Part shown: positions 23,131 to 47,447 of the stretch, one piece after another | How positions within the stretch are numbered: the first letter of the stretch is position 1 | Layout: every line of letters starts with the position of its first letter | NCBI RefSeq assembly: GCF_016695175.1 | Contig: NZ_CP068023.1 | Coordinates: 1,414,501-1,478,500, forward strand | Direction: 5' to 3' | Source of the DNA: Pseudoalteromonas sp. GCY | GTDB lineage: Bacteria > Pseudomonadota > Gammaproteobacteria > Enterobacterales > Alteromonadaceae | Length of the DNA stretch: 64,000 nucleotides | Notes under the pieces: generated by a model | Databases searched by the model: none | What the model saw: only the letters and a program-made list of their open reading frames with translations | Told to the model about the DNA's origin: nothing | Position numbers and translations under genes: made by a program

Positions 23131-23151
23131 TAAATATAATAATTTAAAAAC

Positions 23152-23180: not shown

Positions 23181-23195
23181 TTGTGGAAGTAAAAA

Positions 23196-24566
23196 ATGAC
23201 AGAGAGCACTATGACACCACGCTCCACCTTACAAACGTGGTTTGCGTTTATCGTACCGTCATTGATTGGTATCTTTTTATTTATGACGCCAGTGGCGGTA
23301 GGGGAAGCAATGACTATCCCAATCGCTGTTATGGCGAAGTGGTTACAAGCGCAAGTCGCTCCTTTTATTAAAGACATGATTGTCGCAATAGTATGTATTA
23401 CCGGGATCATGAGTTTGGTGATGAAGCTCCTAAGACCCCAAGCGCTATTAAAAATAACCATAATAAAGCACTTATTTGACGTTAGCTGGGTTTGGTTGAT
23501 AACCCGACTAGTTGGCATGGTGTTTATTGTGCTTACCTTCAATGGTGTTGGTCCAGAAGCGATCCATTCAGAAAACACAGGAGCATTAGTGCTAAATGAC
23601 TTGTTACCTGTACTCTTTTCTGTCTTTATTCTTGCCGGCTTGTTACTGCCATTACTACTTAACTTTGGTCTACTTGAGATGGTTGGCACACTCTTGACCA
23701 AAGTGATGCGCCCGCTATTCGGTGTGCCTGGTCGTAGCGCGGTAAACTGTGTTGCTTCTTGGCTTGGCGACGGTAGCGTAGGTATCTTGATGACTGCTCG
23801 CCAATATGAGGATAAGCACTATACACAACGAGAAGCGGCTATCATCGGCACCACATTCTCTGCGGTTTCCATTACTTTCTGTTTAGTTGTTATTGGTCAA
23901 GTTAAACTCGAACACCTGTTTGCTCCTTTTTACCTTACCGTATGTGCAGCTGGCTTTGTTGCAGCGATCATAGTGCCACGCTTACCACCGCTAAGGTTCA
24001 AAAAGGATATCTATGTAGATGGTAGCGATCACAATCAGGATTCGGAAGCGGTGCCAGAAGGAAAAGGCCTGTTAGGTCATTCTTTGGATATTGCACTTGC
24101 TAAGGCTAAAACGGCACCAGGGCTTAAAGGAACATTAGAAGAAGGCCTGCACAATGCGTTAGATATGGTATTTGCTGTACTTCCCGTGGTTATGGCAGTT
24201 GGTACTTTTGCCCTGATCATCGCAGAATACACCCCTGTATTTCAATATTTAGGTACACCTTTCGTTCCTTACCTCGAGCTACTCAATGTGGCAGAAGCCG
24301 AAAAAGCAGCACAGACGATAGTGGTAGGCTTTGCTGATATGTTTATTCCGTCAATCCTTGCTGCTGGCTCTATTGAAAGTGATACCACCAGATTTATCGT
24401 TGCCGCAATGAGTGTTACCCAGTTAATTTACATGTCTGAAGTTGGGGCATTACTGCTTGGTAGCAAAATCCCAGTGAACTTGTGGGAGCTATTCCTAATC
24501 TTTATTTTAAGAACGCTCATTACCTTACCTGTTATCGTCTTTATGGCGAAATGGTTAGTTGGCTAA
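23196..24566 (+). CDS. YjiH family (nucleoside recognition/gate domain) membrane protein
   Basis: A polytopic inner-membrane protein of 456 residues. Gate-domain (nucleoside recognition) segments recur: PLFGVPGRSAVNCVASWLGDGSVG, with TARQYEDKHYTQREAAIIGTTFS in the first half and VGFADMFIPSILAAGSIES with FIVAAMSVTQLIYMSEVG in the second. YjiH relatives have no firmly established substrate; nucleoside or spore-maturation-like (SpmA/B) relatives suggest transport. It lies between two terminators, so it is monocistronic. Confidence 0.85.
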   Translation: MTESTMTPRSTLQTWFAFIVPSLIGIFLFMTPVAVGEAMTIPIAVMAKWLQAQVAPFIKDMIVAIVCITGIMSLVMKLLRPQALLKITIIKHLFDVSWVWLITRLVGMVFIVLTFNGVGPEAIHSENTGALVLNDLLPVLFSVFILAGLLLPLLLNFGLLEMVGTLLTKVMRPLFGVPGRSAVNCVASWLGDGSVGILMTARQYEDKHYTQREAAIIGTTFSAVSITFCLVVIGQVKLEHLFAPFYLTVCAAGFVAAIIVPRLPPLRFKKDIYVDGSDHNQDSEAVPEGKGLLGHSLDIALAKAKTAPGLKGTLEEGLHNALDMVFAVLPVVMAVGTFALIIAEYTPVFQYLGTPFVPYLELLNVAEAEKAAQTIVVGFADMFIPSILAAGSIESDTTRFIVAAMSVTQLIYMSEVGALLLGSKIPVNLWELFLIFILRTLITLPVIVFMAKWLVG

Positions 24567-24567
24567 A

Positions 24568-25162: not shown

Positions 25163-26971
25163 ATGTACGAAGTAAAAGGATTCGGCGTATTACGTTTTGC
25201 CGCATTTTTTTTCATAGCTAGTAAAAGTTATGCATCGGGAACTGAAAACTCATGTCAAGTATCAGTACAAGTTAGAGACTTTATGCCTCGTACTTGTTAT
25301 TCCGAGTATTCTGAATCTAGTTGTAATGATATTTGCGTTGCCGCAGAACCTTCTATGGAACCATCGTGTTTTAGGAAGATAGAGCTGCCTTGTGGGATAA
25401 AGCAAGAGCTTAAAGCATCGGCATTAGGGTACCAAAACAGAAATGGTCATGAATGGTTTCATGTCACCGACTTAATGAATCATACCGCCTTGATTGAGCA
25501 ATATTATGTATTGCAGCAATCGCTTTACGGTGAACTATATAAAGATTTTGTTAACCCTGCAGATGTTGCAGGATTTAGTCCTGCAAGTGATAGTCTTCGA
25601 AAAGTTAATTTTAGACTGAATACTATTAGTTCAACTCGAAGCGTAGCTGCGGGTTTGTCACATGCTGCGCTCTACAGAAGATATGAGTATGGCTTGCTAC
25701 TTGAAGAAAAGTTAAATGCGCATTTAGCGAAAGTGAGTGCAAATATCAATCAATTTGGCTTAATGAGTGCTGTTGAGAAAGAAAATCTAAAGGTGGAGAT
25801 AAATCAACTGGTTGACAGCCAGACCCGGCTTTGGAAAATTCTCAAAAAATATGATGCAAGTACAATTTTATCAAGCAGAGTACGAATTATTAATCGCAGA
25901 CTTACTGCACTGAATGATTCACTAACCCTCATTCCATTTGTTCAACAACAAGCACTCATCCACAAAACTCAGGTATTAAATGCCTATTTTGATGTCAGCT
26001 TCAGACAATGCGAGACAACGACTTGCTTTAACGCACTTGATGCTAGCGCCGTGGTTATTGATACCGATTATGACAAAAAACTAACGTATTTTGAGTTATA
26101 TTTGGAGCAGTTAAACAATGAAGCCTCTTTGCTGAGCAATGCTTATTCGAGTGATTATCAGCCAGTTGATCCTGCTTTTGTTCGAATGCCGACTTTTGCA
26201 GGGTTTGTAACTGAGCACTATCAGGATATGCGAGCGCAGGGCACAGAACTATCTTTGAAAAAGCTAGCCACGGCGATTAATGTTGCTTATTTAGCTAAAA
26301 ATGTTGATGGTCGAAGACTGTCTCAAAAGCTTGCAAAGACGGCTGATAGTACGATTGATGGCTTCAGTTCAATAGCACTATTTAATGAGCAGCACACATT
26401 GTTGTGTAAAGAATACACACGAATAAACCCGCAACTAAGCCAGTTTCAGCAAGAGAGTTTCACTCTTGGTCATGAGGCTAATGAGCTAATTGCAACATTG
26501 ATTGATTTTGGTTTAGACAGTGAACAGCTCGCTCGATTAGAGTGGATCATTACACGATTAAATGTCTTGGCGGCTCAATCAATTCAAATTGCGAACCTCA
26601 ATATCACCGAAGTTGATAGATATCAATCGGTAGTATGGAAGTTGGACCAAGCAGACAATTTCTTCGCAAATAACGGCAACATCGAAATAGAATATTTGGA
26701 ATACGATGGACTTTATTGGACACCAAATATGTTGCCATCAATCCCAGAGATAATGCCATCCATAGTCAATATCTCCACGCCTGAAAGTACGTTATTTCCT
26801 ACCGGCAGCGCATCGGCAGGTTCAATGAATGTACTTCAAATGTTAATAAAGCAAAACCCTTTTAGTGCCTGTTCTGAGAACAATAATGAACTACAGCTCA
26901 TTATAAAAGCGGAATCACCAAATGGTCAGGTTAAGCGGCACATTCTCAGAGCTACTCTAGAGCAACTCTAA
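25163..26971 (+). CDS. Exported helical protein of unknown function, Cys-rich N-terminus
   Basis: I do not recognise this 602-residue protein. A signal peptide (about 1-25, cleavage near SYA) is followed by a Cys-rich segment (seven Cys within about residues 30-80). A long mostly helical body (about 85-510) has several coiled-coil-like stretches, and a short beta-type C-terminal part ends the protein. The N-terminal Cys density and the NISTPES segment near residue 530 recall the next gene (which has NISTPST), suggesting related parts of one structure. It opens the eleven-gene exported cluster and has AAGGAAG upstream of ATG 25163. Confidence 0.85.
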   Translation: MYEVKGFGVLRFAAFFFIASKSYASGTENSCQVSVQVRDFMPRTCYSEYSESSCNDICVAAEPSMEPSCFRKIELPCGIKQELKASALGYQNRNGHEWFHVTDLMNHTALIEQYYVLQQSLYGELYKDFVNPADVAGFSPASDSLRKVNFRLNTISSTRSVAAGLSHAALYRRYEYGLLLEEKLNAHLAKVSANINQFGLMSAVEKENLKVEINQLVDSQTRLWKILKKYDASTILSSRVRIINRRLTALNDSLTLIPFVQQQALIHKTQVLNAYFDVSFRQCETTTCFNALDASAVVIDTDYDKKLTYFELYLEQLNNEASLLSNAYSSDYQPVDPAFVRMPTFAGFVTEHYQDMRAQGTELSLKKLATAINVAYLAKNVDGRRLSQKLAKTADSTIDGFSSIALFNEQHTLLCKEYTRINPQLSQFQQESFTLGHEANELIATLIDFGLDSEQLARLEWIITRLNVLAAQSIQIANLNITEVDRYQSVVWKLDQADNFFANNGNIEIEYLEYDGLYWTPNMLPSIPEIMPSIVNISTPESTLFPTGSASAGSMNVLQMLIKQNPFSACSENNNELQLIIKAESPNGQVKRHILRATLEQL

Positions 26972-27002
26972 GAAAACGATAACTACACAGAAGGAAAATT
27001 TG

Positions 27003-27926
27003 ATGAGCAAATATTTGCTTGCTGGACTGCTATTGTCTGGCGGAATGAGTGTGCACGCAAATGCCACGGAACAAACTATATTCGATGCTAATACCATGTG
27101 TACGGCAAAGCAAACAACGGAAGGAACAAGATACTTCCCGCCTTGTGCTTATTCGCCAACACAAGTGTATGCAGAGCAAGAATTAAGCTATTCAAGCCCA
27201 AGTATAGTAAGAAATGGATTATTCAAAACTGCGATAGAGTACACCTTTCAATGTGAGTCTATTCGACCGCTATCACTTCGGTATAGTGTTGAATCAGATG
27301 GTGTCGCGAGTATCTCTAACCGGATTTCTGGCGCTGCTTCAAGTGAATTGAATACGATCCCATTAACTCATGGATTTTCAAATTCATATATCAGCTTTGA
27401 AGCGATGAGCGGTATCACAGGGTTTCAAGCTATCAAGCCTGGTTGTAAGCTCGTTGTTAGCAAAGTCGTAACTTATCCGGAACCCACTTATTTTAATCAA
27501 GTTGCTTCAAGCTTAAGCTCTTGGAACAGTACCTTGAGCACAATGATCAACATCTCTACACCATCTACAGGGTATTTAACTTTGCTCAATAGCATTGATA
27601 ATACCTTAGATACTCTGGAGTTTGTGCTATTTGAGGTTGAAGACCCAATCACTATTGAACAACTTAATTCCGATATATCTCAGCTACGCGCGTCAAAACA
27701 AATCCTCGAACAAAATTGTCGAGCAGGCACATCTGCTCAGCTATGCACGGCTGAACTTGCCAATATTCGCAGCTATGCAAATAGCAGTATTTTGCTAAAC
27801 GAAATGAAAGCACAAGATTTATATCGTTATATCAATAGTCAAGTCAATTGGCTTGCAGATAAGTCGATTGGTCGTGATTACAGCATGCTAAGTCTAGTTA
27901 AGAACAAGCTAGCAAGGATTCAATGA
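27003..27926 (+). CDS. Exported protein of unknown function
   Basis: A 307-residue protein with a signal peptide (cleavage near HANA at about 22) and a Cys-containing beta-rich N-terminal domain (about 24-165; Cys in MCTAKQ, PPCAYS, FQCES and PGCKL). A helical C-terminal half with two further Cys (QNCRAG, QLCTAEL) follows. The start is ATG 27003, behind AAGGAAAAT; the TTG just before it is less likely. It shares the NISTPS segment with the preceding gene. Function unknown; cotranscribed with both neighbours (31 and 26 nt gaps). Confidence 0.82.
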   Translation: MSKYLLAGLLLSGGMSVHANATEQTIFDANTMCTAKQTTEGTRYFPPCAYSPTQVYAEQELSYSSPSIVRNGLFKTAIEYTFQCESIRPLSLRYSVESDGVASISNRISGAASSELNTIPLTHGFSNSYISFEAMSGITGFQAIKPGCKLVVSKVVTYPEPTYFNQVASSLSSWNSTLSTMINISTPSTGYLTLLNSIDNTLDTLEFVLFEVEDPITIEQLNSDISQLRASKQILEQNCRAGTSAQLCTAELANIRSYANSSILLNEMKAQDLYRYINSQVNWLADKSIGRDYSMLSLVKNKLARIQ

Positions 27927-27952
27927 TTTTTATAACCCGTAAGGAAAATGGT

Positions 27953-29899
27953 ATGTACTTAAAGAAGTCTGTTACATCAGTTTTAGCCGTGCTACTTAGT
28001 AGTTCAGTAGCATATGCTATGCCAGATGCAACAAAAGGAAACCCTCTTGACTCACTTGGTATTCCAACGCCAGCCGGTGTTGGTGATATCACAGTTGATC
28101 ATGAGAACCCAAAAACACTACATGTTGGCCCAGCAAGCAGCAAAGTCATTATTGGCGATTATGCAGAGCTTGGTTCTTCAGGACCTCAGTGTTCTGATTA
28201 TAGCAAGATAAAAGCTGACGCTTACCGTCAGAAATCAACACCAGCACAACAAGAGCAAGCTTATCGTAACAGAGAGTTTGTCAGTAACTGGTATCAGTTT
28301 ACTTATGCATTGCCGCGCTCATCGGTTGAAACTATAAGAAAGATCAGCGATAGCCGTGCTGAAATGGACGAATTAGCGTTTCAAAATGCGGGTACTATTG
28401 AACGATTTAAAGCAGTAGATGCAAAGTGGAAAGGTATTGCCATTGAGCTTGGTGCTTTAGAAGATGAGTTTGATACGCTAGATAAAGCGCAAGCTACTGA
28501 GACAAATACTTGTATCGTCTCTTACTCTACTAACCCTACGATGCTGAGTCAGTGCATAGTGGGTGTTATCACCAAATATCAAGCGCCAAAGGCTGCCGTA
28601 ACTGCAGAAATTGACCGAGTGAAACAAGATAGAGCGGCAATTCGTGATGAATACTACGAAGCAAAAGGCCTTTATGATGCATATGAAGATAAGATCACAC
28701 GCTTAGATAGTTCGCTTGATTTTCAAACTCGATTACTCGCAGCGCAAAGTGCAATCGTGAAATCAGCTTGGGAAGTACAAACTGATGTCGTTGAAACGAG
28801 TGGTGCCAAGATCACGGGTCTTGCTAGTGCGGGCTACAACCTTTGGGAAAATGAACGCGACTTATTAGCAAGTACACTTTACCAAGCAGGGCATGGTGAC
28901 TATAGCGTCAAACAGCTGGATGTATTTAACGTGCGGTTAAACTCAGGTGTGACTCAGGCCAACCCAACCGTTGAAGCGAATAACTCTCCGCTGTTCTATA
29001 AGAATGTTTGGACTTTCCCTGCAAATACTTTGGTAAACAAAGATGTATTGCGTGATTGGGCAATGCCATTTGAGCGAGAGTTGGAAGGTGACACAATTCA
29101 CTTCGACACGATGGATGCTCATTCTTTCGCATCTGGTGGTATTAACTTCTTTGTAACCCGTGACGCTCGTTGTGGTGAATACTCTGAACAAATCGAAGAG
29201 GAGTATACGGGTAATGAAAATGGGGTTTCTGCATCTTGGAGTGTAAAGCGTAAGCTTTATGAACCACAACCAAACCGTAGTGTATTCGTTGCAAACCTAG
29301 GCTTAGCCTACAACTACTACGCATTCCCTGGCGAAATCAAAGGTGAGTGTTCGATTGATGTCGACCGCATGAATAGCTACTGGAGAAATGCGGGTAAATC
29401 TAAGGGTTGGAGCTGGTTCAGAAGCAAAACTCGTTCATGGGATCACATTCGTGAGGAAGCAAGAGAAGAGCTTGGCATGGAATGTTCGCTAGATCTGAAA
29501 CCACAATCAAATGATCCGGCATTAGCTGCAGAGATTGCTGCTAACTTAGAAGCTGAGATGTACAACGACATGTGGACAATGTTCCTGTCTGTTTACGCTG
29601 AGTCTTACGATGTAGTTTCTGATGAGCCAGTTGTTGATGACGCAGGTAAAAGTGAGGTTGGCGCGCAACTTGGTGACGGTATCACTAAGTTCTGTAAATC
29701 GGCAGTCTGTGGTTTTGCGAATGTTGTGTTGAGAACATTAGACACTATTGGTGGCTCTAAAGCACAAGGTACTACTTCGCATGTATCAACCAATTACGGA
29801 AAAATCTGGAAACGATTTAATAAACGTACTTGGACTGTTAAGGAAGGCAGCGCATTAGTTACAGCAAAAGTTTGTGTAGATAAAGCAAGCTGTAGTTAA
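27953..29899 (+). CDS. Large exported coiled-coil protein of unknown function
   Basis: A protein of 648 residues not recognised from any family I know. It starts with a signal peptide (MYLKKSVTSVLAVLLSSS, cleavage near AYA at 22). A long helical, coiled-coil-rich region (about 70-300) is followed by an aromatic, mixed domain (about 310-500) and a C-terminal domain with Cys pairs (FCKSAVCGF; KVCVDKASC at the end). ATG 27953 has an AAGGAAAA ribosome site and starts the signal peptide directly; the longer frame from 27923 would put ten charged residues in front of it. It may be the main structural or effector element of the cluster, but that is a guess. Confidence 0.83.
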   Translation: MYLKKSVTSVLAVLLSSSVAYAMPDATKGNPLDSLGIPTPAGVGDITVDHENPKTLHVGPASSKVIIGDYAELGSSGPQCSDYSKIKADAYRQKSTPAQQEQAYRNREFVSNWYQFTYALPRSSVETIRKISDSRAEMDELAFQNAGTIERFKAVDAKWKGIAIELGALEDEFDTLDKAQATETNTCIVSYSTNPTMLSQCIVGVITKYQAPKAAVTAEIDRVKQDRAAIRDEYYEAKGLYDAYEDKITRLDSSLDFQTRLLAAQSAIVKSAWEVQTDVVETSGAKITGLASAGYNLWENERDLLASTLYQAGHGDYSVKQLDVFNVRLNSGVTQANPTVEANNSPLFYKNVWTFPANTLVNKDVLRDWAMPFERELEGDTIHFDTMDAHSFASGGINFFVTRDARCGEYSEQIEEEYTGNENGVSASWSVKRKLYEPQPNRSVFVANLGLAYNYYAFPGEIKGECSIDVDRMNSYWRNAGKSKGWSWFRSKTRSWDHIREEAREELGMECSLDLKPQSNDPALAAEIAANLEAEMYNDMWTMFLSVYAESYDVVSDEPVVDDAGKSEVGAQLGDGITKFCKSAVCGFANVVLRTLDTIGGSKAQGTTSHVSTNYGKIWKRFNKRTWTVKEGSALVTAKVCVDKASCS

Positions 29900-29955
29900 T
29901 AAAAAATGTGGGAGAGGGTTCTACTTCTCCCACAAGTTTAAAAGGAGTACCTAAA

Positions 29956-30498
29956 GTGAAAGTGAAACTAATTTTGACAGGTGGGTTAATCAGCGCTGCA
30001 CTCATCGGTGCTGCTGTTCATTTTAAATTACAAGACACGCCTATTGAAACCCTCAAGGTAAGCGCAGCAAAAAGCGCAGATAGTCTAGCAAAGGAGCTGG
30101 AACACAAAGACATTACCGCGAACGATAAGTCAGAAGAAACAAAAATAGAAGCAGTAGAACAAGTAGAGCCAACGCTGAGTGCTCAACAACTACTGGAAGT
30201 TGATATGAGTAAGGAAGAGGAATATTACAGCTTTTTACTCGAAAACTTTCCCGAATTAAAGCAAGAAATTAGTGAGTATCGCCAGAGTGTTGGTGAGCAA
30301 AGAGAAAAAGTGCTGGGTTACAAAGAGAAAATTGCCAACCGCAATCAACAAATCTCTCAGTATGGTAGTACTTCGGCGTCATTAGATAGCATGCTCAAAG
30401 CAGAACGAGATGAGTTACTCCTGAGTGCCAATGTACTGGGGAAAAAGGCGCAAGAGCTGAATGAGTCGATTAGATTAGCCGCTGCAAGATATAACTAA
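29956..30498 (+). CDS. Membrane-anchored periplasmic coiled-coil protein
   Basis: A 180-residue protein with a single N-terminal membrane segment (about 5-22), a charged Lys/Glu linker (about 35-75) and a coiled coil (about 85-165: KQEISEYRQSVGEQREKVLG and later heptads). GTG 29956 is chosen because AAAGGAG lies 9 nt upstream; the longer frame from 29908 has no ribosome site and would disrupt the anchor. No family recognised. In the cluster it could be the inner-membrane tether of the exported proteins. Confidence 0.78.
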   Translation: MKVKLILTGGLISAALIGAAVHFKLQDTPIETLKVSAAKSADSLAKELEHKDITANDKSEETKIEAVEQVEPTLSAQQLLEVDMSKEEEYYSFLLENFPELKQEISEYRQSVGEQREKVLGYKEKIANRNQQISQYGSTSASLDSMLKAERDELLLSANVLGKKAQELNESIRLAAARYN

Positions 30499-30526
30499 AA
30501 GTTGTAGTTATAAAAGGAATTACATT

Positions 30527-32917
30527 TTGAATTTTAAAAAAGTTTACATCGCTGTTGTAACAGCAAACCTACTCGCTTGTGGTGGAAGCGATGCCGCCAC
30601 TATCACTGCGGTCGAAGCTGGACAAGTGACAGACATCACGCAACCTCAAGCGTATTTACATGCTTCAGCTGCAAATTTGTTTTTATATCAGAATATTACG
30701 CTTGATGCTTCCTCAAGTACTGACACGCAAAGTGAGTTAACTTTTTCTTGGCATATCGCAGATAGCCAAGGTGGCATAGTTGATAGGGTAGAAGCGGTTG
30801 ATTCTGTTATCCAATATCGTCCTACCATGGCTGGCAATTTCAGTGGCGTGGTCACAGTCACTGATAGTGCTGGTAATAGCGATACTGCAAAAGTTGATTT
30901 TGTGGTGAGTGAAGAGTCAGTGATTGCTTTGGACTTGGGCCCTGATTTTGAGTCTAAGAAAGGGAACAGTATTACGCTGAGCGCCAGAGAATCAGTTTCA
31001 CAAGCAGGAGCCATTGAACATGCCGTATGGTCAATTACGGCTGCACCACAAAACTCGACTGCAAACCAAGCTAGTCCCTTTTCTGAGCTTGAAAGCACCT
31101 TTATTTTTGATGAAGTTGGTCATTATGAGATAGGGGTACAGGTGACGGATGAAGATAACAATATTGTGACTGATACTGTGTCCGTTAAAGTTTCTGACCG
31201 TAGGCAGAATGCAGCACCACTAGCCGACATTTTTGGTCTACGTACGCAAGTAAAACCTAACGAGATGCTGTTGCTAGATGGGTCAAATAGTTATGACCCT
31301 GATGTCACCGACTTACTGGTATATTCATGGAAAATAATTGAAAAGCCTAATGGAAGCTTTGTTCGCCTGAGCTCACCGTTCGATGAGCAAGTAGCTGTCA
31401 GTGCGACAAAAGTTGGAGACTATAGTGTCCAACTGAATGTTAAAGATCTAGGCGGCCTATCCAGCGACGCGCTATATCACTTTACGGTGAGTAATGCTGA
31501 CCAACCACCAATTGCTATGTTGGGTGCTGATATTTCAGCGACTCAAGGAGAGGTGGTTAATTTGTCCTGTGATGCATGTATTGATCCTGAGCAAACAGAG
31601 CTTAATGGGCAGTGGAAATTGACGATTAGACCTTCTGGGAGTTCTGCAAATATTATTGGTAAAGAGCAGCTACTCGGAGCAACCTTAACGCCTGATTTAG
31701 CGGGAGTCTACGGTATCAAGGCGTTGGTATCAGATGGCGTATCCCAATCATGGTCGAATACACAACTTATCAATGTCAACTCAAGCGGTGAGAGTAAACC
31801 CTCTGCGTTTATTGCTCCAATTTCAGACATTACCTTGGGTGAAAGTATCGTACTCGACGGTTCACAAAGCCGTGATCCAGAAGGGATGCCTTTGTCCTAT
31901 ATTTGGCGCATCGCCAAACAACCTGGCTCTGATACTTTGCCAGCGCTGCAAGACGCTAAAATAGAGTTTACGCCTTCCGTTTTAGGTAGTTATCAAATTG
32001 AACTGAAGACTTTTGATGGTGCTCTATATTCAGAGGCGACATCGGTGACGTTTAATGTAACGGATAATCAATCGCCGATTATTCAAATTAAAGAGCCATT
32101 AGAGACGGAAGTTCAAGTTGGCCAGTTGGTCAGTATTGATGCCTCACAAAGTTATGACCCTGAAGGACAAGCACTAAGTTACAGCTGGAGGCTGATAGGT
32201 CCAAACAATGACGTATTGATCGGTAATGAACAAACTAGCCTATTTTCGTTTACACCTGATTTGGCTGGGGTTTACAGAGTTGAGTTGGTCGTTAATGACA
32301 CAGACGGTGCGAGTGCCAATCGTAACTTCGAATTTACCGTATTAGATTCTCCACAGCTAATCTATGGTTCAGTAAAAGGTCGACTAGTCAATAGCCAGTT
32401 ACGAGGCATAGCCGATGTTAATTTAGCTATCAACGGCATGTCCGTCGTAACGGACAATCTCGGCGGGTTTTCTACCAGTGTACAGTTGGCTCGTGGTGAG
32501 AGAGTGATAATAAAAACGGCCGACGATAAAGTAATCAATGCCACTTATCAATCAGCGTCACAACTCAACGATGGTTTCCAAATTTCGCTGGGTGAGGCAT
32601 TTGTGCCAGTGATGCAACCTGTAAGACAGCATGTTTGGAGCTGTTTCGGTTATCAAGGTCAGAGCCAAATTAATATTAAATACGAGCTGGTTGATAGCTT
32701 TCCTGCAAGCAGTCCTTTTGTATTTGACTACAACAAAACGATAAGCGTACCGCTGAACAAGAGGCAAGAAATGTCTTTTCCCGCAACAGCTACTTACCGC
32801 ATCACGCCTGCTGAAAGTGACACTTACTATGTGAGTTCCACGACTAATCGTCTTGAGGTAACGCTACTTGAAGGCTACCAGCAACCGATAGTTTATAACA
32901 TTTGCAATTACAAATAA
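30527..32917 (+). CDS. PKD-repeat lipoprotein
   Basis: A lipoprotein of 796 residues (lipobox LLAC at about 18, followed by GGSD). It is built from about six PKD-type beta-sandwich repeats with the recurrent motif LDGSxSxDPxGxxLSYxW (for example LDGSNSYDP, LDGSQSRDPEG, IDASQSYDPEGQALSYSW). A carboxypeptidase-regulatory-like domain (about 615-680) and a short beta C-terminus follow. The start is TTG 30527 with AAAAGGA upstream. Surface-exposed adhesion or scaffolding is the usual role for such architecture. It is the only predicted outer-membrane-anchored member of the + strand cluster. Confidence 0.88.
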   Translation: MNFKKVYIAVVTANLLACGGSDAATITAVEAGQVTDITQPQAYLHASAANLFLYQNITLDASSSTDTQSELTFSWHIADSQGGIVDRVEAVDSVIQYRPTMAGNFSGVVTVTDSAGNSDTAKVDFVVSEESVIALDLGPDFESKKGNSITLSARESVSQAGAIEHAVWSITAAPQNSTANQASPFSELESTFIFDEVGHYEIGVQVTDEDNNIVTDTVSVKVSDRRQNAAPLADIFGLRTQVKPNEMLLLDGSNSYDPDVTDLLVYSWKIIEKPNGSFVRLSSPFDEQVAVSATKVGDYSVQLNVKDLGGLSSDALYHFTVSNADQPPIAMLGADISATQGEVVNLSCDACIDPEQTELNGQWKLTIRPSGSSANIIGKEQLLGATLTPDLAGVYGIKALVSDGVSQSWSNTQLINVNSSGESKPSAFIAPISDITLGESIVLDGSQSRDPEGMPLSYIWRIAKQPGSDTLPALQDAKIEFTPSVLGSYQIELKTFDGALYSEATSVTFNVTDNQSPIIQIKEPLETEVQVGQLVSIDASQSYDPEGQALSYSWRLIGPNNDVLIGNEQTSLFSFTPDLAGVYRVELVVNDTDGASANRNFEFTVLDSPQLIYGSVKGRLVNSQLRGIADVNLAINGMSVVTDNLGGFSTSVQLARGERVIIKTADDKVINATYQSASQLNDGFQISLGEAFVPVMQPVRQHVWSCFGYQGQSQINIKYELVDSFPASSPFVFDYNKTISVPLNKRQEMSFPATATYRITPAESDTYYVSSTTNRLEVTLLEGYQQPIVYNICNYK

Positions 32918-32925
32918 GGAAAACA

Positions 32926-33438
32926 ATGAAATATCTATTTGCTCTTTTACTTGCGTCTTCGTCAGTGGTGCATGCTGCTGAGCCCATCTTAGTTTGGGGA
33001 ACTAAGTACAGCTATAACAAAAGCGACTTTAAACCAAAAACGGTGGTTAACGGTAATATTTATACGTATACGTCAAATATAGAAATGTTGCTGGATGAAT
33101 ATGACGACTTTATCGGTGATTACCCAGTACTTACTTTTGATTTGAGCGCTGAAATTATGGCTGATGCAGTGCCATACCCGATACCACTTTCGTTAGTTGC
33201 TAGTTGCCAAAACGACTCTGGATATTCAGAGTCACTTGGCTTTAGTCAAAGCATTTTAATTGAAAAGTATAATTTCGTGCTGCCTGCAAGAATGAATGTT
33301 TTTAACCGTGTAAAAACAAATGGTGCCTGTAAGCAGCTTCGAATCGACATTGTCCCGCATACCGGCGAACTTATTGATTTGGACGCGATAATAAAATCTA
33401 TCCGCTTCGATGCACTTATCTTATCTGATGCACAGTAA
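32926..33438 (+). CDS. Small secreted protein, cluster paralogue 1
   Basis: A 170-residue exported protein (signal peptide cleaved near VHA at about 18), probably all-beta. It carries the family start I-V-WG-Y followed by KSDFKP and two central Cys (VASCQND and NGACKQLRIDI). It is the most diverged member of the tandem family that follows. ATG 32926 is preceded by AAGGAAAAC and sits 8 nt after the PKD gene; a longer frame overlapping that gene is rejected. Confidence 0.78.
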   Translation: MKYLFALLLASSSVVHAAEPILVWGTKYSYNKSDFKPKTVVNGNIYTYTSNIEMLLDEYDDFIGDYPVLTFDLSAEIMADAVPYPIPLSLVASCQNDSGYSESLGFSQSILIEKYNFVLPARMNVFNRVKTNGACKQLRIDIVPHTGELIDLDAIIKSIRFDALILSDAQ

Positions 33439-33471
33439 TTCTAATAACTAAAGGAATAATAAGGAAAACAC

Positions 33472-34128
33472 ATGTTTAAAAAATCTTATCTTTGCGCTTC
33501 AATTGGCATAGTAATGTCTATGGGCGTATCAGCAAGCCAGATCGAAGAAACAAATGACGGGGTCGTTGGTGCGGCTTTCCAATCAGGTTTAATCAATACT
33601 CCTGCGCGCCCAATTGATAGTGGCTGCTGTGATTATAGATATCCGTCACGACCTTGCCTTGAACCTTTGTCTGATCAAAAAGTATTAACTGAAGCAGAGG
33701 TTGCTGAGAGCTTTAATCTACTGTCTGCTGAACCTATTTATGTCGGCGGCGCTCGCTATCAATTGACCAAAAACGATATGAAACCAATATATTCGTTTGA
33801 ACCTGTATATGGTCCGTGTCCAGGCAATCCACCAGAATATTATAGAGTGCTTAAAGGGTATGAAGTTGAGCTACCTGTTGATGGGGATTTTGGTCAAGAT
33901 CTGATTTATGAGGTAACAGGCAGAGCCAGCACCTCTGTGTCTATGTCGGTAAGTTGTGGAACGGGTAGTTCGGCGTTTACATTAAGCGATAGTGGGACAA
34001 AACTGATTGTTTCAAAACGTCTAAATACGGGCGGAACATGCAGCAAAATGCATATCAAGGCAAAAGCAGTTAGTGGTGCATTGACTAGCCTAGATCTCAC
34101 TGTTGCTGTTTATACTCCACTTCAATAA
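33472..34128 (+). CDS. Small secreted protein, cluster paralogue 2
   Basis: A 218-residue exported protein with a signal peptide (cleavage near VSA at about 22) and an additional Cys-rich insert (GCCDYRYPSRPCLEP, about 51-65). The shared family core follows: EPIYVGGARYQLTKNDMKP, then LKGYEVELPVDGDFGQDLIYEVTG, SVSCG and a late GGTCSKM. The two core Cys are placed as in its paralogues and probably form a disulfide. AAGGAAAAC precedes ATG 33472. Function unknown. Confidence 0.8.
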   Translation: MFKKSYLCASIGIVMSMGVSASQIEETNDGVVGAAFQSGLINTPARPIDSGCCDYRYPSRPCLEPLSDQKVLTEAEVAESFNLLSAEPIYVGGARYQLTKNDMKPIYSFEPVYGPCPGNPPEYYRVLKGYEVELPVDGDFGQDLIYEVTGRASTSVSMSVSCGTGSSAFTLSDSGTKLIVSKRLNTGGTCSKMHIKAKAVSGALTSLDLTVAVYTPLQ

Positions 34129-34138
34129 GGATATTATA

Positions 34139-34741
34139 ATGAAAAATAAAATTCTATTTGCTTCTTTGTGCGCAGTATTGTCTTCATCTGTTATGGCATC
34201 TGGCGCTGGTTTCCCTATTGAAATAGACCCGAGACCTTGCCCTACTTCATTTGGCACAGCAGAACCAGTGACTCCTGCTCCATTTTATACACAACAAGAT
34301 ATGTTAGATGTTGCCGCGAATATTACTCCACATGGCGTTTATATTGGTGGACAGCGCTACAGCTTTGATATTCAAGATTTTGCACCTGTTTATGATGTGT
34401 ATTACGACAGAATATTCAATCAAGAAATGCAATATATCAGTTCATATAAGGCGCAATTTATAGTTGATGGTGATTTTGGGCAGCTACTTAACTTTGATAT
34501 ATCAGGTAGCTTGAGTGAAGCGGCCAATATTACGGTTTCATGTGGTGATTTCCGTGCGTCAGCATACGGAACACGTAGTATACAGGTGAATAAGCAGCAG
34601 CGTACAGGCGGAAGCTGTGACATTATGACAATCACCGTGGCGGCAGACAAAGCACGCTGTCCACGCTTGGGTGTGCCGCCAGCAAGCGCTGAAATGGATT
34701 CGATGAACTTTACCGTTATCATTTCAGAAAACCTCGACTGA
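34139..34741 (+). CDS. Small secreted protein, cluster paralogue 3
   Basis: A 200-residue exported protein (signal peptide about 1-20, cleavage near VMA). Its core is closely similar to paralogue 2: VYIGGQRYSFDIQDFAPVY, YKAQFIVDGDFGQLLNFDISG, TVSCGDF and GGSCDIM. Compared with paralogue 2, the N-terminal insert is shorter and keeps one Cys (RPCPTSFG). ATG 34139 follows AAGGATAT; the longer frame from 34103 overlaps the upstream gene and lacks a signal peptide at its N-terminus. Confidence 0.8.
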   Translation: MKNKILFASLCAVLSSSVMASGAGFPIEIDPRPCPTSFGTAEPVTPAPFYTQQDMLDVAANITPHGVYIGGQRYSFDIQDFAPVYDVYYDRIFNQEMQYISSYKAQFIVDGDFGQLLNFDISGSLSEAANITVSCGDFRASAYGTRSIQVNKQQRTGGSCDIMTITVAADKARCPRLGVPPASAEMDSMNFTVIISENLD

Positions 34742-34758
34742 GCATTAAGGAAAAGAAC

Positions 34759-35277
34759 ATGATAAAAACAAAGAAGTGGCCACTATGGCTACTTGCGTTA
34801 CCTTTGGCGGCTTTAGCGAATACAGAAAGCTCGGCTACTGCGGTAATTATTGATGATGGTATAAAGCAGCTGCAAATTGCAGATTTTACACCAGTCACAT
34901 CGAGTTGGGCTGGCAGAAATGTGATTACTGGCTATGAAGCCTTATTGGATGTAGATAACAGTAGCGGCGCCGATAGTTTGTTATTTAATGCAACAGCTGA
35001 ACTCTCTGCCACTTGGTTTGCGGCAAATTTCATTGCGGATATTAATATCACTTGTAGTGGTATACCTGTGGGTTATGACCTCGCCCAAGGTTATCGAGCA
35101 CATCGCTATTCTATTCCCGGTCAGGTACAGATATCTGAGTTAAGAAAAGGAGTAAGTGACTGCAAGCAAATTAAAATTAACATCTCTAAGCGAGGATCAC
35201 TCAGTCGTCAATTTTTCACTCAGATAGAAAGTATAGATTTTGATTTGAGTATTGAAAGTATCAAAGGAGCAAAGTGA
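34759..35277 (+). CDS. Small secreted protein, cluster paralogue 4
   Basis: A 172-residue exported protein (signal peptide about 1-20). It has the family motifs LQIADFTPVTS, ITGYEALLDV, ATWFAANFIADINITCSG, then SDCKQIKINISKRGSLSRQF and FTQIESI. The WFxxNF and GxLSRxFYTxI motifs are shared with paralogues 6 and 7 and define a subgroup. Its stop overlaps the next ATG. Confidence 0.82.
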   Translation: MIKTKKWPLWLLALPLAALANTESSATAVIIDDGIKQLQIADFTPVTSSWAGRNVITGYEALLDVDNSSGADSLLFNATAELSATWFAANFIADINITCSGIPVGYDLAQGYRAHRYSIPGQVQISELRKGVSDCKQIKINISKRGSLSRQFFTQIESIDFDLSIESIKGAK

Positions 35278-35804
35278 TGACCTCTAAGTCAATTATAATT
35301 GCGGCGATGCTATTTTCAGGTGTGTCTGCCAATGCTCAAGCTAACTCCGTACCTTTTAGTAATGCAGAGATGACGGTAAGCGACAAGGGATACACGTTGT
35401 CCATTGCGCCGCTACAATTTGAGGGTAATCGACACTTATCTATTGAACTTGAAGTAAGTGGAGTTAAAACGATAAGTCGTCAAAGTATCTCTGTATGTAC
35501 CTATCTGCAAGCTGATGTGTGTACAGGTGCAACTCGTGAGGTGAACCATACTAAGGCCGAATTTGAGGCGCAGGTTGCACTGCGTTGCGATGACAACGTT
35601 TTGTTTGACATCACAAGCCACGACAGTGAATTTACCAACGAAAATGTGGTTGCAGACATAGCAAATATTCACGTTGAGCAGTCTGTTTTTAGAGAAAATC
35701 TGTCAAGCTGTGAGTCTTTAACACTCAATGTGAATTTAGCTAAAGGCGACCGTGTTAGCACTGTACTTGGAAGCTATACAGTGTCTGATTCAACCTCAAA
35801 CTAA
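35277..35804 (+). CDS. Small secreted protein, diverged cluster member 5
   Basis: A 175-residue exported protein (signal peptide about 1-22, cleavage near ANA). It shares size, export and a likely beta fold with its neighbours but lacks the WF-NF and LSR-FYT motifs. It has four Cys (VCTYL, DVCTG, LRCDD, SSCES) instead of two. ATG 35277 overlaps the previous stop codon; the GTG 3 nt before is also possible. Whether it is a true paralogue or just a partner needs structure comparison. Confidence 0.75.
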   Translation: MTSKSIIIAAMLFSGVSANAQANSVPFSNAEMTVSDKGYTLSIAPLQFEGNRHLSIELEVSGVKTISRQSISVCTYLQADVCTGATREVNHTKAEFEAQVALRCDDNVLFDITSHDSEFTNENVVADIANIHVEQSVFRENLSSCESLTLNVNLAKGDRVSTVLGSYTVSDSTSN

Positions 35805-35816
35805 GGAAAGGTGTAT

Positions 35817-36338
35817 ATGATGGTTAGAAAATTGCTTTCTGGCGTTGCTTTGTGCTGCATTAGTGCAATTACTAATGCAAACCCAGTACATGTTGGTGGT
35901 GTTATATACCAATTGGACTTCTCTGACTTTACGCCCATCACTAAACCATATGGTAATACTACAGCGGTGGTGGGCTATGAGAAAGAGTTGTTTGTTGAGG
36001 GCGATTATGGTCAGTATCTGCTCTATGAAGTTGATGGAGAGATTAAGACCAAATGGTTTGCCGGCAATATGCTTGCTTCAATGTTTGTCAGTTGCAGTGA
36101 TGCAACCAATGATCCTAGTTCTGAGCAAATAATTGGGGCGACTTTTGCTTTTGGAGTGAGGTATGACCAAGTATCCTATACCGCAAAGCCAAGAGTCAGT
36201 GAGATCCGTAATACGGCGGGCCAATGTAAAAGGATGAAAATCCGGATTAATAAAGAAGGTAATTTAAGCCGCCAATTTTACACGATTTATACCGATATGA
36301 AACTGCGAGTCAAAGTCATCGAAGTGGTAGGTGGCTAA
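35817..36338 (+). CDS. Small secreted protein, cluster paralogue 6
   Basis: A 173-residue exported protein (signal peptide cleaved near TNA at about 20). Family motifs: PVHVGGVIYQLDFSDFTPI, VVGYEKELFVEGDYGQYLLY, KTKWFAGNMLASMFVSCS, FGVRYDQVSYTAKP, GQCKRMKIRI and EGNLSRQFYTI. It is the closest relative of paralogue 7 (shared FGVRYxQVSYxAxP). ATG 35817 is 6 nt after AAGGAAAG. Function unknown. Confidence 0.82.
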   Translation: MMVRKLLSGVALCCISAITNANPVHVGGVIYQLDFSDFTPITKPYGNTTAVVGYEKELFVEGDYGQYLLYEVDGEIKTKWFAGNMLASMFVSCSDATNDPSSEQIIGATFAFGVRYDQVSYTAKPRVSEIRNTAGQCKRMKIRINKEGNLSRQFYTIYTDMKLRVKVIEVVGG

Positions 36339-36853
36339 TGAGCAAGTTATATTGTTCACTTGTATTATTTGGCAGTCTCGCGGTGAGTACTCACTGTGTT
36401 GCACTACCAACTATTATTACTGGTGAAACCATTAATTTGACTAAATCCGACTTTGCCGTTATCAAAGAGCGATATAGTGTTAAAGATGGCGAACCCCAGT
36501 ATGCTGAAACTGGATATGAGTTTCCCTTTAAGACACTCATTATCGGCCAAAATAGCATATTGGACTTTAACCTCAGCGGTTCAGTATATAGTGCTTGGTA
36601 TTCGTCGAACTTCGCAATGGACTTTCAGTTATATTGTGAAAATACGTTAGTTGCTGAAGATAGGGCGTTTGGCGTTCGATATCAGCAAGTCAGCTATTCG
36701 GCGACGCCATATATCAATAGTAGATCAGTAGCGGTACCAGATGGTTGTGAATCTGGGAAGTTGGTCTTAACAAAGGTTGGGAATTTATCGCGTGCTTTTT
36801 ATACTCGTATACAAGATATCAACCTTAATTTGACTATCAACAAACCATACTAG
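36338..36853 (+). CDS. Small secreted protein, cluster paralogue 7
   Basis: A 171-residue exported protein (signal peptide cleaved near CVA at about 22). Motifs: LTKSDFAVI, ETGYEFPF, SAWYSSNFAMDFQLYCEN, AFGVRYQQVSYSATP, then GCESGKLVL and VGNLSRAFYTRIQDI. Its ATG overlaps the previous stop (TAATG), so paralogues 6 and 7 are translationally coupled. It is the last gene of the + strand cluster and is followed by a terminator. Confidence 0.82.
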   Translation: MSKLYCSLVLFGSLAVSTHCVALPTIITGETINLTKSDFAVIKERYSVKDGEPQYAETGYEFPFKTLIIGQNSILDFNLSGSVYSAWYSSNFAMDFQLYCENTLVAEDRAFGVRYQQVSYSATPYINSRSVAVPDGCESGKLVLTKVGNLSRAFYTRIQDINLNLTINKPY

Positions 36854-36921: not shown

Positions 36922-37458
36922 TTAGAACGCTCGCTCTAAGCTGCCAAGTAACTCAACCTCAGCAACTGCAACTTGTTCTAACTTGCTTAGTTCCAGTGCA
37001 AGCTTATTCAGTTCAATATTATTTGATCTTGGTTTAACTAGAGCAATCTTATTTTCGAAGTCTCGTAAAATAATGAGATCGAACTTGTTTGCAATACTTT
37101 GTAGGTCACCATTATATTTAATTTCCAGATTGCCAGAAACTACCCGCTTGTTTCCTTGCTTGTCGGAAAGTACATCTCCTTTATAATAACCAACTTCGCG
37201 TATCGGGGCTGATTTTACATAGGCAATATCATGATGCACTCTAACTGTCTTTTCGGGTGCTGCAATCGCAGCTGGTAGAGCCTTTAGTCTTGCTTCTTTA
37301 GTTAAAACTGCGGTTTCAGCGGTATCTTTTACTTTTTTCAACGTTGCTACATCAACGGCTTTTAGTTCTAATGGCTTAAGCTCAGAGGTCATGACGTTTG
37401 CTAGTGTGTTCATTGAAATTACTGAGACAGAAGCCAAAAATAGTTTTTTTACATTCAT
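36922..37458 (-). CDS. Exported companion protein of the S8 protease
   Basis: A 178-residue protein with a signal peptide (about 1-21). Its N-terminal half is Lys/Ala-rich, followed by a small alpha/beta domain (about 110-178) ending AVAEVELLGSLERAF. It lies 12 nt downstream of the S8 protease in the same operon. The compact C-terminal domain and the position suggest a dedicated chaperone or inhibitor, comparable to the ORF2 chaperone encoded next to the Aeromonas sobria kexin-like serine protease. This is inference from context, not from recognised sequence identity. Confidence 0.75.
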   Translation of the reverse strand: MNVKKLFLASVSVISMNTLANVMTSELKPLELKAVDVATLKKVKDTAETAVLTKEARLKALPAAIAAPEKTVRVHHDIAYVKSAPIREVGYYKGDVLSDKQGNKRVVSGNLEIKYNGDLQSIANKFDLIILRDFENKIALVKPRSNNIELNKLALELSKLEQVAVAEVELLGSLERAF

Positions 37459-37470
37459 TTTAATTACCTC

Positions 37471-39894
37471 TTACTTACGCCCGATAACTCTTAAACCCCA
37501 ACCCTCAAGAGTCGAAGGTTCTGAGTTTGCAAATACAATACTAGCTTTATTAGCCTTATTTAAATAGTTCACTTGGTCCGGCTTATCAGTGTCCACAGCT
37601 CTTACAGTCCAAGTCCCCTTTGCCTGCTCACCATAAAATGCATTGCTTAAAAAGTGTACTGAAGGTAGTTGCACATAGCCTGAACGATAGTAACCATCTA
37701 GGATTGCGGGCATTAAGTGGGCATGTTTAGACGCAAGTACAATTGCCTTGGTACCCGATGGAGAAGTTACTTCAAGTGCTAGATCAGTACCAGCGGAGCT
37801 CGCGGTATCACCAGGAATACTTGAATTACTATATAGTGCCATTTCTGGGTTTGAAATCGTAAAGCGGAACTGCATCGACTCTACCGTCATTTCATCATCT
37901 AATACGATATTATGCGTAACACCTTGTGCATCGTTATCTGGAATCGTAAGGTCCAAACTTGGGGTTGTTGGCACGACAAGCTCAGGAAACCCATTAGCAT
38001 CGATTTTGGTTTCCAATATTTGACTACCAGCATCGATCCACTCAGAGGAAATTTGTGCTCCTAAGTCAGTCTTGTAGTTCATCGCCATTTTGACTGCTTT
38101 GCCTGCATTCGCAAGGCCAAACCCATAGTAGTTATTAAAATGGTAACCTGCAGCATTTTTCACCCAACCTAAATGTGCAATGAATTCGCCGGTTGGTGTT
38201 GCTAATTTAACTTGACTATTTTCTGGATCATTTTTGACCGCAGTCGTAGCTAAAATATGACGAATGTCTCTTGCGCTCAGATCTGGATTGGCCTCGAGTA
38301 TCAAAGCAATCACACCAGAGGTGTTGGGAGCGGCTGAAGAAGTACCATTCATCGTATTTGTATAATTGCAGTTTGCATTCTGTGGATGGCCAGGGTAATT
38401 GAAGTTGGCAAAGCCCTCAACAAATGCTTGCGAGCCATATTTGTACAGCTCTTCTATTCCAGCAAAGCTTGAGTAGCCTTCCAAGCATGTCATCTCGTCT
38501 GTTGTGACCATCGCAGGAGCAAATGCCCCGTATTCACCACCTGGCGCTGAAATAAATAGAGCACTACCAGCAGAAGAGTAACTCGACTTCTTACCATTTG
38601 CAGCAATAGCTGCAACTGTTAAGCTATGCGGCGAGCGGCTGGCTTGAGAAACGTTTACATCAATACAGCCTAATCCGATACTGGCGACATTCGTTCTTTT
38701 ACAGTAGTCACCATTATGTGAACCATTAACAAACTCGTTCCCAGCAGCGACGATACTTAAGGCTCCTTTACCGTCTCTTAGAGTCGAAGGTGCATAGGCG
38801 AAGAGTGATTCTCTAACTTCGTTTTCTGGTAAAAAATGGGCAGGGCTATAGCCATAGCTTCTGTTAAATAAGACATTTTCATCTTTACGGATACCGCTAC
38901 CATCCATGCCGTGAATAATGGCTAAATCGATTAGGCCACCGCGTTGATAATCTAAGTAGTTAATACTAATAAGGCTTGAATCCGGAGCCACACCTCGCCC
39001 GCCGAGTCCATTCCACCCCTTAGCTGCGATTAACCCTGAAACAGCGGTGCCGTGCGCTTCAATATCATTTTTTTCGTATACTTCTTCAATATTACCGTCT
39101 TTGTCTTCTTGCTCAGTCCAATATCCAGTCATAGTCGGATCGGTAGGATCGCTTGCATTCGGAAGAAGGTTAATTGAACGACCTGGAAGTACATTATCGC
39201 TCAAATCTTCATGGCCGATATTTGTGCCGTGGTCAACAACTACGGAAATGATGCCTTTACCTGTGATCCCTAACGCATGTGCTTCTGCGACATTTAGGTC
39301 GTTACCTGCTATTTTGCTACCTACGAATGAATCTCTAAGTTTTTGCTCTTCGGCTTTGAGCTCATCTTCTGATGCAGAACTACCCAGTCTACGTTTGGCC
39401 ATTTGTTCTACGAGTACTTCGCTTTGTGAGAATGCTGACTGTTCAGTGTTTCTTAAATGCCACTGTTGGTATGCAAGCGGATCTGTAATTGATGCAGGGA
39501 TCTCAATGCTACCATTTGCAGATTTACCTTTGGCTGTAACGGTATATTTAATTGTTGCTGCTTCGCCTGTAAGCGGTAAGTAATCAAACGTAGAGATGCT
39601 CTTTAGTGTTAAAACACCGTGTGGCAATGTATAAACATTGTCTACCGGTGTTATCTCAGTTTCACCATCAAATATTGCGATTGAAAGGTTATCACTATCT
39701 GGATCTGAAGCCTGAATTGTACCTGAAATGGTCTGCCAGTGTTTCACATTCTCTAGCTGAGTCACACCAGCTTGAGGTGAACGGTCAACTTGTTGCGCAG
39801 TGTTAGCATTATCTTTATCACTGCCACCACAGGCTGATAGGGCTAAAACTATCGCTGTCGATAGCGCCGTGTATTTAAATTTATTGTTATTCAT
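37471..39894 (-). CDS. Kexin-like S8 serine protease lipoprotein with P-domain
   Basis: A protein of 807 residues with lipobox LSAC (Cys22) and a beta domain (about 38-135). A kexin-like entry (ITDPLAYQQWHLRNTEQ) leads to the subtilase domain with Asp221 (VVDHGTN), His281 (EAHGTAVSG), oxyanion Asn386 (AAGNEF) and nucleophile Ser519 (MNGTSSAAP). A C-terminal P/homo-B-type domain (about 660-807, TSPSGT and the closing GWGLRVIGRK) ends it. I choose ATG 39894, which has AAAGGT upstream and puts the lipobox at the right place; the longer frame begins at 39936. Likely anchored to the outer membrane or surface, processing exported substrates. Confidence 0.92.
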   Translation of the reverse strand: MNNNKFKYTALSTAIVLALSACGGSDKDNANTAQQVDRSPQAGVTQLENVKHWQTISGTIQASDPDSDNLSIAIFDGETEITPVDNVYTLPHGVLTLKSISTFDYLPLTGEAATIKYTVTAKGKSANGSIEIPASITDPLAYQQWHLRNTEQSAFSQSEVLVEQMAKRRLGSSASEDELKAEEQKLRDSFVGSKIAGNDLNVAEAHALGITGKGIISVVVDHGTNIGHEDLSDNVLPGRSINLLPNASDPTDPTMTGYWTEQEDKDGNIEEVYEKNDIEAHGTAVSGLIAAKGWNGLGGRGVAPDSSLISINYLDYQRGGLIDLAIIHGMDGSGIRKDENVLFNRSYGYSPAHFLPENEVRESLFAYAPSTLRDGKGALSIVAAGNEFVNGSHNGDYCKRTNVASIGLGCIDVNVSQASRSPHSLTVAAIAANGKKSSYSSAGSALFISAPGGEYGAFAPAMVTTDEMTCLEGYSSFAGIEELYKYGSQAFVEGFANFNYPGHPQNANCNYTNTMNGTSSAAPNTSGVIALILEANPDLSARDIRHILATTAVKNDPENSQVKLATPTGEFIAHLGWVKNAAGYHFNNYYGFGLANAGKAVKMAMNYKTDLGAQISSEWIDAGSQILETKIDANGFPELVVPTTPSLDLTIPDNDAQGVTHNIVLDDEMTVESMQFRFTISNPEMALYSNSSIPGDTASSAGTDLALEVTSPSGTKAIVLASKHAHLMPAILDGYYRSGYVQLPSVHFLSNAFYGEQAKGTWTVRAVDTDKPDQVNYLNKANKASIVFANSEPSTLEGWGLRVIGRK

Positions 39895-40760: not shown

Positions 40761-40791
40761 GTCATCTATAAAGTGAACTGACAATTGTCAG

Positions 40792-47446: not shown

Positions 47447-47447
47447 T

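Follow-up and report, generated by a model that had tools for sequence, protein, structure and literature searches.

What is made by the gene block at positions 25163-36853 of the window (the whole 64,000-nt stretch of DNA analysed here), a block of twelve genes, all on the + strand, most of whose products match no named family? Its features suggest to us an envelope system, so far undescribed, with which the cell recognises or adheres to something external.

Gene content and predicted products

An earlier note on this DNA was right to see a cluster here but counted eleven genes, where its own list adds up to twelve. Its description of the layout is otherwise borne out. The genes share a strand and, using conserved starts, are separated by intergenic gaps of -4 to 56 bases; AAGGA-type ribosome sites are indeed the rule, AAGGA preceding 11 of the 12 starts (the exception is F7); and all twelve products are predicted to be exported or membrane-anchored, with a hydrophobic stretch opening every protein.

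Gene A, 25163..26971, + strand: core; 602 aa, predicted signal peptide, cysteine-rich N-terminus, conserved C-terminal region, no known family
Gene B, 27003..27926, + strand: core; 307 aa, predicted signal peptide, 6 cysteines, no known family
Gene C, 27953..29899, + strand: core; 648 aa from the conserved start, predicted signal peptide, long helical hairpin, strand-rich C-terminal region
Gene D, 29956..30498, + strand: core; 180 aa, one N-terminal transmembrane segment, then a predicted coiled coil, no cysteine
Gene E, 30527..32917, + strand: 796 aa predicted lipoprotein, at least five PKD/Ig-like repeats
F1, 32926..33438, + strand: small exported paralog
F2, 33472..34128, + strand: small exported paralog with an additional N-terminal cysteine segment
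F3, 34139..34741, + strand: the paralog nearest to F2
F4, 34759..35277, + strand: small exported paralog
F5, 35274..35804, + strand: the most divergent F paralog
F6, 35811..36338, + strand: small exported paralog, structure modelled
F7, 36338..36853, + strand: small exported paralog

The mature parts of the exported proteins have an even cysteine count in 120 of 120 cases (from 11 loci, some of them close relatives) and D, the least conserved of the core genes, lacks cysteine in 11/11 loci; both observations agree with export and disulfide formation. No tRNA or Rfam match was found within the window.

The proposal of a single coherent system outside the recognised families holds up, PKD, in E, being the only known family matched. 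E scores 128.4 bits against PF22352 (gathering cut-off 27), this Pfam model matching five stretches, and yields an E-value of 1e-37 with a K319L-like PKD model. By inspection its lipobox ends LLAC, followed by GG, the residue after the Cys being other than Asp; the A-C-G columns are invariant in all eight aligned E proteins. Nothing credible was found for A-D and F in Pfam, NCBIfam (A to F5, i.e. without F6 and F7), PHROGs or PADLOC (these last two scanned with ten of the twelve proteins, all but F3 and F4), sub-threshold matches being judged chance or coiled-coil noise. PDB-sequence profile searches with A, B and C returned only coiled-coil or chance matches, and those with the F family other than F5 nothing credible. 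A profile search with A against 5.8 billion proteins gave one match; it scored only candidates sharing most words and is not informative on the distribution of A.

F1-F7 form one paralogous family, six members being joined directly by profile comparison. F5, unlinked in the profile comparison of Pseudoalteromonas F groups, was considered as an unrelated protein; this was rejected, as its matches to F proteins of the Thalassomonas type, 30-44 bits across almost the full length, tie it to the family as a divergent member. The F6 sequence searched singly found two proteins. Its model is a confident jelly-roll beta-sandwich (mean pLDDT 87.3), whose top structural matches are tied between a viral capsid, a TNF ligand, a TNF-like lectin and other jelly rolls; against viral structures, too, it matched generic jelly rolls. 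Jelly-roll folds serve many purposes.

Such a fold is common to carbohydrate-binding modules, and PKD repeats like those of E are common among polymer-degrading marine proteins, both of which would suit a module for capturing glycans and feeding on an extracellular polymer, with the F proteins as carbohydrate-binding subunits around the lipoprotein. However, the block contains no recognisable enzyme, TonB receptor or transporter, and we consider this explanation improbable.

The C model (pLDDT 70.8), searched with Foldseek and VIA-align, contains a helical hairpin at approximately residues 122-294 (numbering of the 658-aa frame) and a strand-rich C-terminal region of lower confidence; a fifth or more of the matches listed for it span only residues 131-278, with the strand-rich C-terminus outside. 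These matches bear on whether the block encodes a secreted multi-component toxin directed against eukaryotes or other bacteria, with A, B and C as helical pore- or complex-forming components and the F jelly rolls as receptor-binding subunits, all leaving the cell together. The block resembles tripartite alpha pore-forming toxins (AHL, SMH, HBL type) in encoding several exported proteins in tandem, with helical parts among them, C gives a weak Foldseek match to AhlB of the AHL toxin (E-value ~0.02), and one C homologue is named 'Hemolysin' in UniRef. However, for C, the only one of these subunits that was modelled, AhlB stands among generic coiled-coil matches with a TM of ~0.1, and there is no family match. 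In the tripartite toxins a hydrophobic membrane segment is expected, whereas every 19-residue stretch of A-C beyond the N-terminus has a hydropathy of no more than 1.06. The membrane-anchored D and the lipoprotein E speak rather for tethering, and a toxin seems unlikely.

Nor is there support for the delivery system put forward previously: neither an ATPase nor a channel or effector domain came to light, with no ATPase or component of type I, II, IV or VI secretion in A to F5 (Pfam, NCBIfam) or in F6 and F7 (Pfam), and no outer-membrane channel recognised in the block.

Distribution of the block

Genomes of the genus carry the whole block or none of it. A is present in 11 of 107 Pseudoalteromonas genomes and B in 12 of 108, the latter including one lone distant copy, and 11 genomes have A-B-C-D-E together with six to nine small genes. 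One relative has an empty site with flanks ~95% identical. Judging from these comparisons, the block comes and goes as a single unit. Weak C matches in genomes G228 and G1091 (103-125 positions, coiled coil) were left out of the counts, and some genomes appear under two locus labels: G055 (L002, L016), G531 (L010, L032), G028 (L011, L019), G041 (L012, L020) and G024 (L013, L021).

Outside the genus the A-B-C-D core is found in Thalassomonas-type, Vibrio and Microbulbifer genomes, accompanied by between 2 and at least 14 small genes and, at the position of E, by an unrelated protein, E'. The PKD lipoprotein, in which the earlier note had seen an outer-membrane scaffold (30527), is thus not a fixed one. 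Comparison of gene order shows the same core order in differing neighbourhoods, the core being inherited whole: A-B-C-D is kept in seven further loci (four Thalassomonas-type, one each in G874, Vibrio and Microbulbifer). Such recurrence in different surroundings indicates that the block is more than chance.

An ordinary genomic island, its genes co-transcribed without acting together, would account for the F4-F5 pair standing alone in three genomes, the lone F2-like genes in three genomes that are also block carriers, the F-only arrays and the lone distant B. Yet the 11 genomes with A-E plus at least six small genes, and the core order of the seven other loci, make this very unlikely.

Among 14 loci examined, two have long direct repeats on either side of the block (L031, ~534 bp at 96%; L014, 843 bp at 91%); none were found in the other 12. 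These repeats suggest insertion by recombination; no mechanism of movement is claimed. No C homologue was found in plasmid, phage and viral collections, and no phage record or viral contig encoding C. There is, in the annotation, a plasmid location for one C homologue (P0021, Pseudoalteromonas sp. T1lg65); the longest contig there is 984 kb and possibly a second chromosome.

Divergence of the E-F segment

Comparison with Pseudoalteromonas sp. S2755 divides the block in two. The core and downstream flank genes share 95-99% DNA identity, whereas E through F7 share only 56-71%, and fourfold sites differ at 48 of 742 in the core against 362 of 562 in E-F. The boundaries can be placed only approximately.

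Exchanged cassette, ~30800..36800 (approximate breakpoints), + strand: identity to S2755 in 200-base steps drops from 90-100% to 48-80%

On this pattern of identity, the 6-kb E-F segment is replaced as a cassette in the window/S2755 pair. Alternatively, the core plus the downstream side could have been replaced instead, for the 566 bases upstream of A in S2755 align at only 76%.

Amino-acid identities were computed for all 55 pairs of loci, and synonymous divergence for ten pairs hand-picked from them. A very large synonymous excess of E-F over the core is present in two of the ten, which represent one event (the window and L016, each against L032); the excess is moderate in L013/L022 and slight or nil in seven. 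In the pair L017/L018 the core gene C is unusually similar, indicating that exchange is not confined to E-F. Where dS is unsaturated (three pairs examined), dN/dS is 0.00-0.44, the proteins being under purifying selection. There is no support for positive selection, nor do these three pairs point to fast amino-acid change within alleles.

An exported paralog family that is swapped as a cassette and changes in copy number, within a block that is itself gained and lost, might also be expected of an envelope shield or decoy. Here the F proteins would mask or mimic structures of the cell surface and alter sensitivity to phages or predators, with cassette replacement following that pressure. That no phage record or viral contig encoding C was found tells against it, as does the lack of a credible defence match in PADLOC among 10 of the 12 proteins (two matches up to an E-value of 0.1, the best 0.0094, over short stretches). 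We think this explanation improbable.

A proposed envelope assembly and its nearest known systems

Of the surface assembly or delivery system envisaged earlier, the surface assembly is the better half, given the PKD lipoprotein E and the swapping of E-F as a cassette in one pair. Starting from the gene content and order, the all-or-none core, the paralogy of the F genes, the single cassette replacement, the even cysteine counts and the F6 model, we propose an envelope-anchored A-D assembly displaying interchangeable small surface binding proteins. Its locations, assembly, display and binding are what we infer, and we put the chance that it is correct at somewhat below even. D would lie in the inner membrane, its coiled coil reaching into the periplasm; A, B and C would be disulfide-bonded exported partners forming with D a fixed core, in which the long helical hairpin of C could bridge the envelope. 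E, or E' in other genera, would be a stalk displaying the F proteins on the cell surface, and these jelly-roll subunits would form the face that binds, be it to a sugar, to a surface or to another cell. Since it is this face that varies, E and F would move together, either swapped as a cassette or increased in number, with A-D retained. Several observations weigh against the proposal: no outer-membrane channel through which F could leave the periplasm was recognised, jelly rolls have many uses and the F6 matches are tied, the proteins are under purifying selection in the three pairs examined, the large replacement is a single event that could also be read in the other direction, and the similarity of C in L017/L018 shows exchange beyond E-F.

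Each of the closest known systems shares only part of this design. TNF-like lectins are trimers with sugar-binding sites. The bacterial ones (BC2L-C N-terminal domain type) have 5% sequence identity to F in one of the tied matches named above, and F differs from them in its signal peptide, conserved cysteine pair and multi-gene context. E resembles PKD-repeat surface lipoproteins in its PKD matches and lipobox, but with an unrelated protein in its place in other genera, the system is not defined by E. Fixed genes combined with variable small exported subunits are likewise a feature of chaperone-usher and other fimbrial operons, but no usher, chaperone or fimbrial domain was found here (Pfam/NCBIfam for A to F5 up to an E-value of 1; Pfam for 39 F-family members up to 0.1). 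The Slr4 S-layer protein and BapP adhesin of Pseudoalteromonas tunicata are likewise previously uncharacterised surface proteins of this genus; they are, however, different proteins, with an adjoining T2SS cluster or putative T1SS (PMC7821379, PMC12153261). The available portions of those two papers do not mention the block, and no description was found in the literature, including the available portion of PMC13097078; published proteome tables may still hold its proteins.

It is a more doubtful suggestion that the block represents a new modular class of envelope system, with an A-D core (three of its proteins disulfide-rich), a pluggable E/E' stalk and from 2 to at least 14 exchangeable jelly-roll subunits, stalk and subunits being swapped as one cassette so as to change recognition. 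The A, B, C, D and F families are unnamed in the libraries searched, yet in several marine genera they behave as a single heritable system. Direct genetic tests could be built on the presence-absence pair and the cassette-swapped pair and, if the proposal is true, marine bacteria would provide a tractable case of surface-recognition cassette exchange outside fimbriae and polysaccharides.

Layout, export features and protein families of the block

The block consists of twelve closely spaced genes, the core genes A to D being followed by a gene for a PKD-repeat lipoprotein (E) and by small exported paralogs (F1 to F7).

25163-36853, + strand: block of twelve genes, encoding A (602 aa), B (307), C (648), D (180), E (796) and F1 to F7 (around 170-220 each)

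The title of an earlier note counted eleven genes; its own list, correctly, comprised twelve. With conserved starts used, intergenic gaps range from -4 to 56 bases, and an AAGGA site precedes 11 of the 12 starts. Each of the proteins has a hydrophobic N-terminus, which in D is the lone transmembrane segment and in E terminates in a lipobox; the predicted membrane positions of D and E follow from these features. Once a simple hydropathy rule had been used to trim the signal region, the cysteine count was even in all 120 exported proteins from 11 loci, a set that lacks one F3, leaves out the extra F genes of genome G023 and includes some closely related loci. Numbers per gene are constant over the loci (A 10, B 6, C 10, E 4, F1 2), with the exception of F3 (2 to 6), and D is without cysteine in all 11. 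Even counts are what disulfide-bonded exported proteins should show.

A Pfam search revealed the PKD repeats in E and no other credible match for any of the twelve proteins. Outside E there was likewise no credible match in NCBIfam for A to F5, nor in PHROGs and PADLOC for A to D, F1, F2 and F5 to F7; PDB sequences yielded none for A, B, C or the F family. The block was not found in print by literature searches. Profile comparison joined F1, F2, F3, F4, F6 and F7, and F5 is tied to them via the F proteins of Thalassomonas-type genomes, so that F1-F7 constitute a single family. One invariant tyrosine and two cysteines are common to 39 aligned rows of F1-F4, F6 and F7.

Distribution and genomic sites

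Of 107 Pseudoalteromonas genomes, 11 have A; among 108, B is found in 12 and members of the F family in 14. All the A genomes fall among the B genomes, and each carries A-B-C-D-E in order, then small F genes: the F1 to F7 set in nine, one F2/F3-type gene absent in G028, and additional F2-type genes, three of them upstream of F1, in G023. The remaining B belongs to G033, a genome without A, and is a distant copy lying directly after what we take to be genes for a response regulator and, probably, a histidine kinase. Three further genomes have only an F4-F5 pair, in two cases (G085 and G046) near presumed thiamine-type genes.

L030 9583-10464, + strand: distant B homologue of G033
L039 3461-4515: lone F4-F5 pair
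L040 3919-4961: lone F4-F5 pair
L041 7457-8493: lone F4-F5 pair

A single-sequence search found C in 9 of 147 relatives. The C profile matched 11 of 395 genomes in a family-wide sample (10 after setting aside one mere coiled coil), 1 of 394 order-wide, the window's own, and 2 of 369 class-wide, namely the window's genome and one coiled-coil match. When 84,980 species genomes were scanned with one C sequence, six loci emerged, Vibrio sagamiensis and an uncultured Microbulbifer among them, and 30 C homologues came from a search of 5.8 billion proteins. Together with the counts for A, B and F, these figures indicate that the system is rare and patchy. For one C homologue (P0021), from Pseudoalteromonas sp. 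T1lg65, the annotation gives a plasmid location (longest contig 984 kb).

Genes that we take, from length and sequence, to be rpoC and rpsL enclose the block in four genomes; the same site in G515 carries only F4-F5, flanked by presumed rpoC-like and rpsL-like genes. Between L017 and L018, and likewise between L012 and L031, the flanks align at no more than around 50-55%, so these blocks sit in different places. Long imperfect direct repeats surround the block in two loci, L031 and L014.

L031 3025-3556 and 16268-16800: direct repeats of around 534 bp, 96% identical, holding most of a TIGR02444 gene together with the final part of an ABC-F gene
L014 4012-4844 and 17472-18311: imperfect direct repeats around the Microbulbifer block, 843 bp, 91% identical, one copy encoding an RtcR C-terminal fragment

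Of 107 genus genomes, 73 have DNA matching the L031 repeat, in many cases as a partial or very short match.

Replacement of the E-F segment

Between the window and Pseudoalteromonas sp. S2755, DNA identity is 99% for A and B, 97% for C and 96% for D, but 71% for E and 56-68% for F1 to F7, falling from near 30800, inside E, and recovering where F7 ends, at around 36800. The two genes beyond F7 are again 95 and 98% identical, the short stretch between being 93%. Correspondingly, 48 of 742 fourfold sites differ in the core as against 362 of 562 in E-F. In the comparison with G055 the two parts are alike (39/743 and 74/927), and in other pairs divergence is similar or somewhat higher in E-F (for example 219/693 vs 397/800 for L013 and L022); E-F is thus not simply a much faster region. 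Replacement accounts better for the S2755 divergence. The three pairs examined show purifying selection on block proteins. Upstream of A, the 566 bases of S2755 before the contig end align at 76%; since this side is not near-identical, the exchange may have gone in either direction. Other parts can also be exchanged, such as C, whose protein identity reaches 92% in the L017-L018 pair, against 56-74% for the remaining core genes.

Directly downstream of the block lies a protease pair.

36922-39936, - strand: subtilase carrying a P-domain (821 aa), with a small exported partner protein (178 aa; weak match to ORF_2_N)

G014 matches the window at 95.4% (20663-24567) and 93.9% (39446-48952), with 3.4 kb in place of the window's 14.9 kb. 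These 3.4 kb contain no block gene, and A has no match in that genome, a case of gain or loss of the block; they hold a divergent version of the pair, its protease 43% identical over residues 159-821 and 81% at the N-terminus. With such divergence between flanks 94-95% identical, the protease pair looks exchanged too, like the E-F segment.

A common core with differing outer sets

Four genomes from a different genus (Thalassomonas-type), together with G874, Vibrio and Microbulbifer, have A-B-C-D followed by E' in place of the PKD protein; E' is without similarity to E. Its repeats of around 400 residues number two in the Thalassomonas-type genomes, where an Asp-Pro linker is present, and in Vibrio, and one in Microbulbifer and G874. 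The Thalassomonas-type loci have at least 12 to 14 F-family genes past E', the stretches stopping short at that end, and two more ahead of A. The G874 locus contains four F-family genes, and that of Microbulbifer three plus a fragment; neither of two small genes in the Vibrio locus was matched by any F profile. Further F genes stand apart from the core as a separate tandem array in the Microbulbifer genome, with a presumed recombinase-like and ParB-like gene group around 4-8 kb away. In two of the Thalassomonas-type genomes an F domain also forms the C-terminus of a protein without Pfam match.

L120 10801-15248, - strand: five tandem F-family genes without core
L118 8231-10069, - strand, and L119 5078-6919, + strand: 612- or 613-residue proteins with C-terminal F domain

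Because a fixed core accompanies an exchangeable, expandable outer set, we prefer to read the block as an envelope-anchored display assembly in which F is the recognition face; a toxin, an envelope shield and a glycan-capture module are less probable alternatives. In the display assembly, A-D, E and F would join together, F would cross the outer membrane by some route and the F proteins would meet a ligand outside the cell. A fixed core with an exchangeable outer set is the arrangement expected when the outer part of a machine meets a habitat-dependent target.
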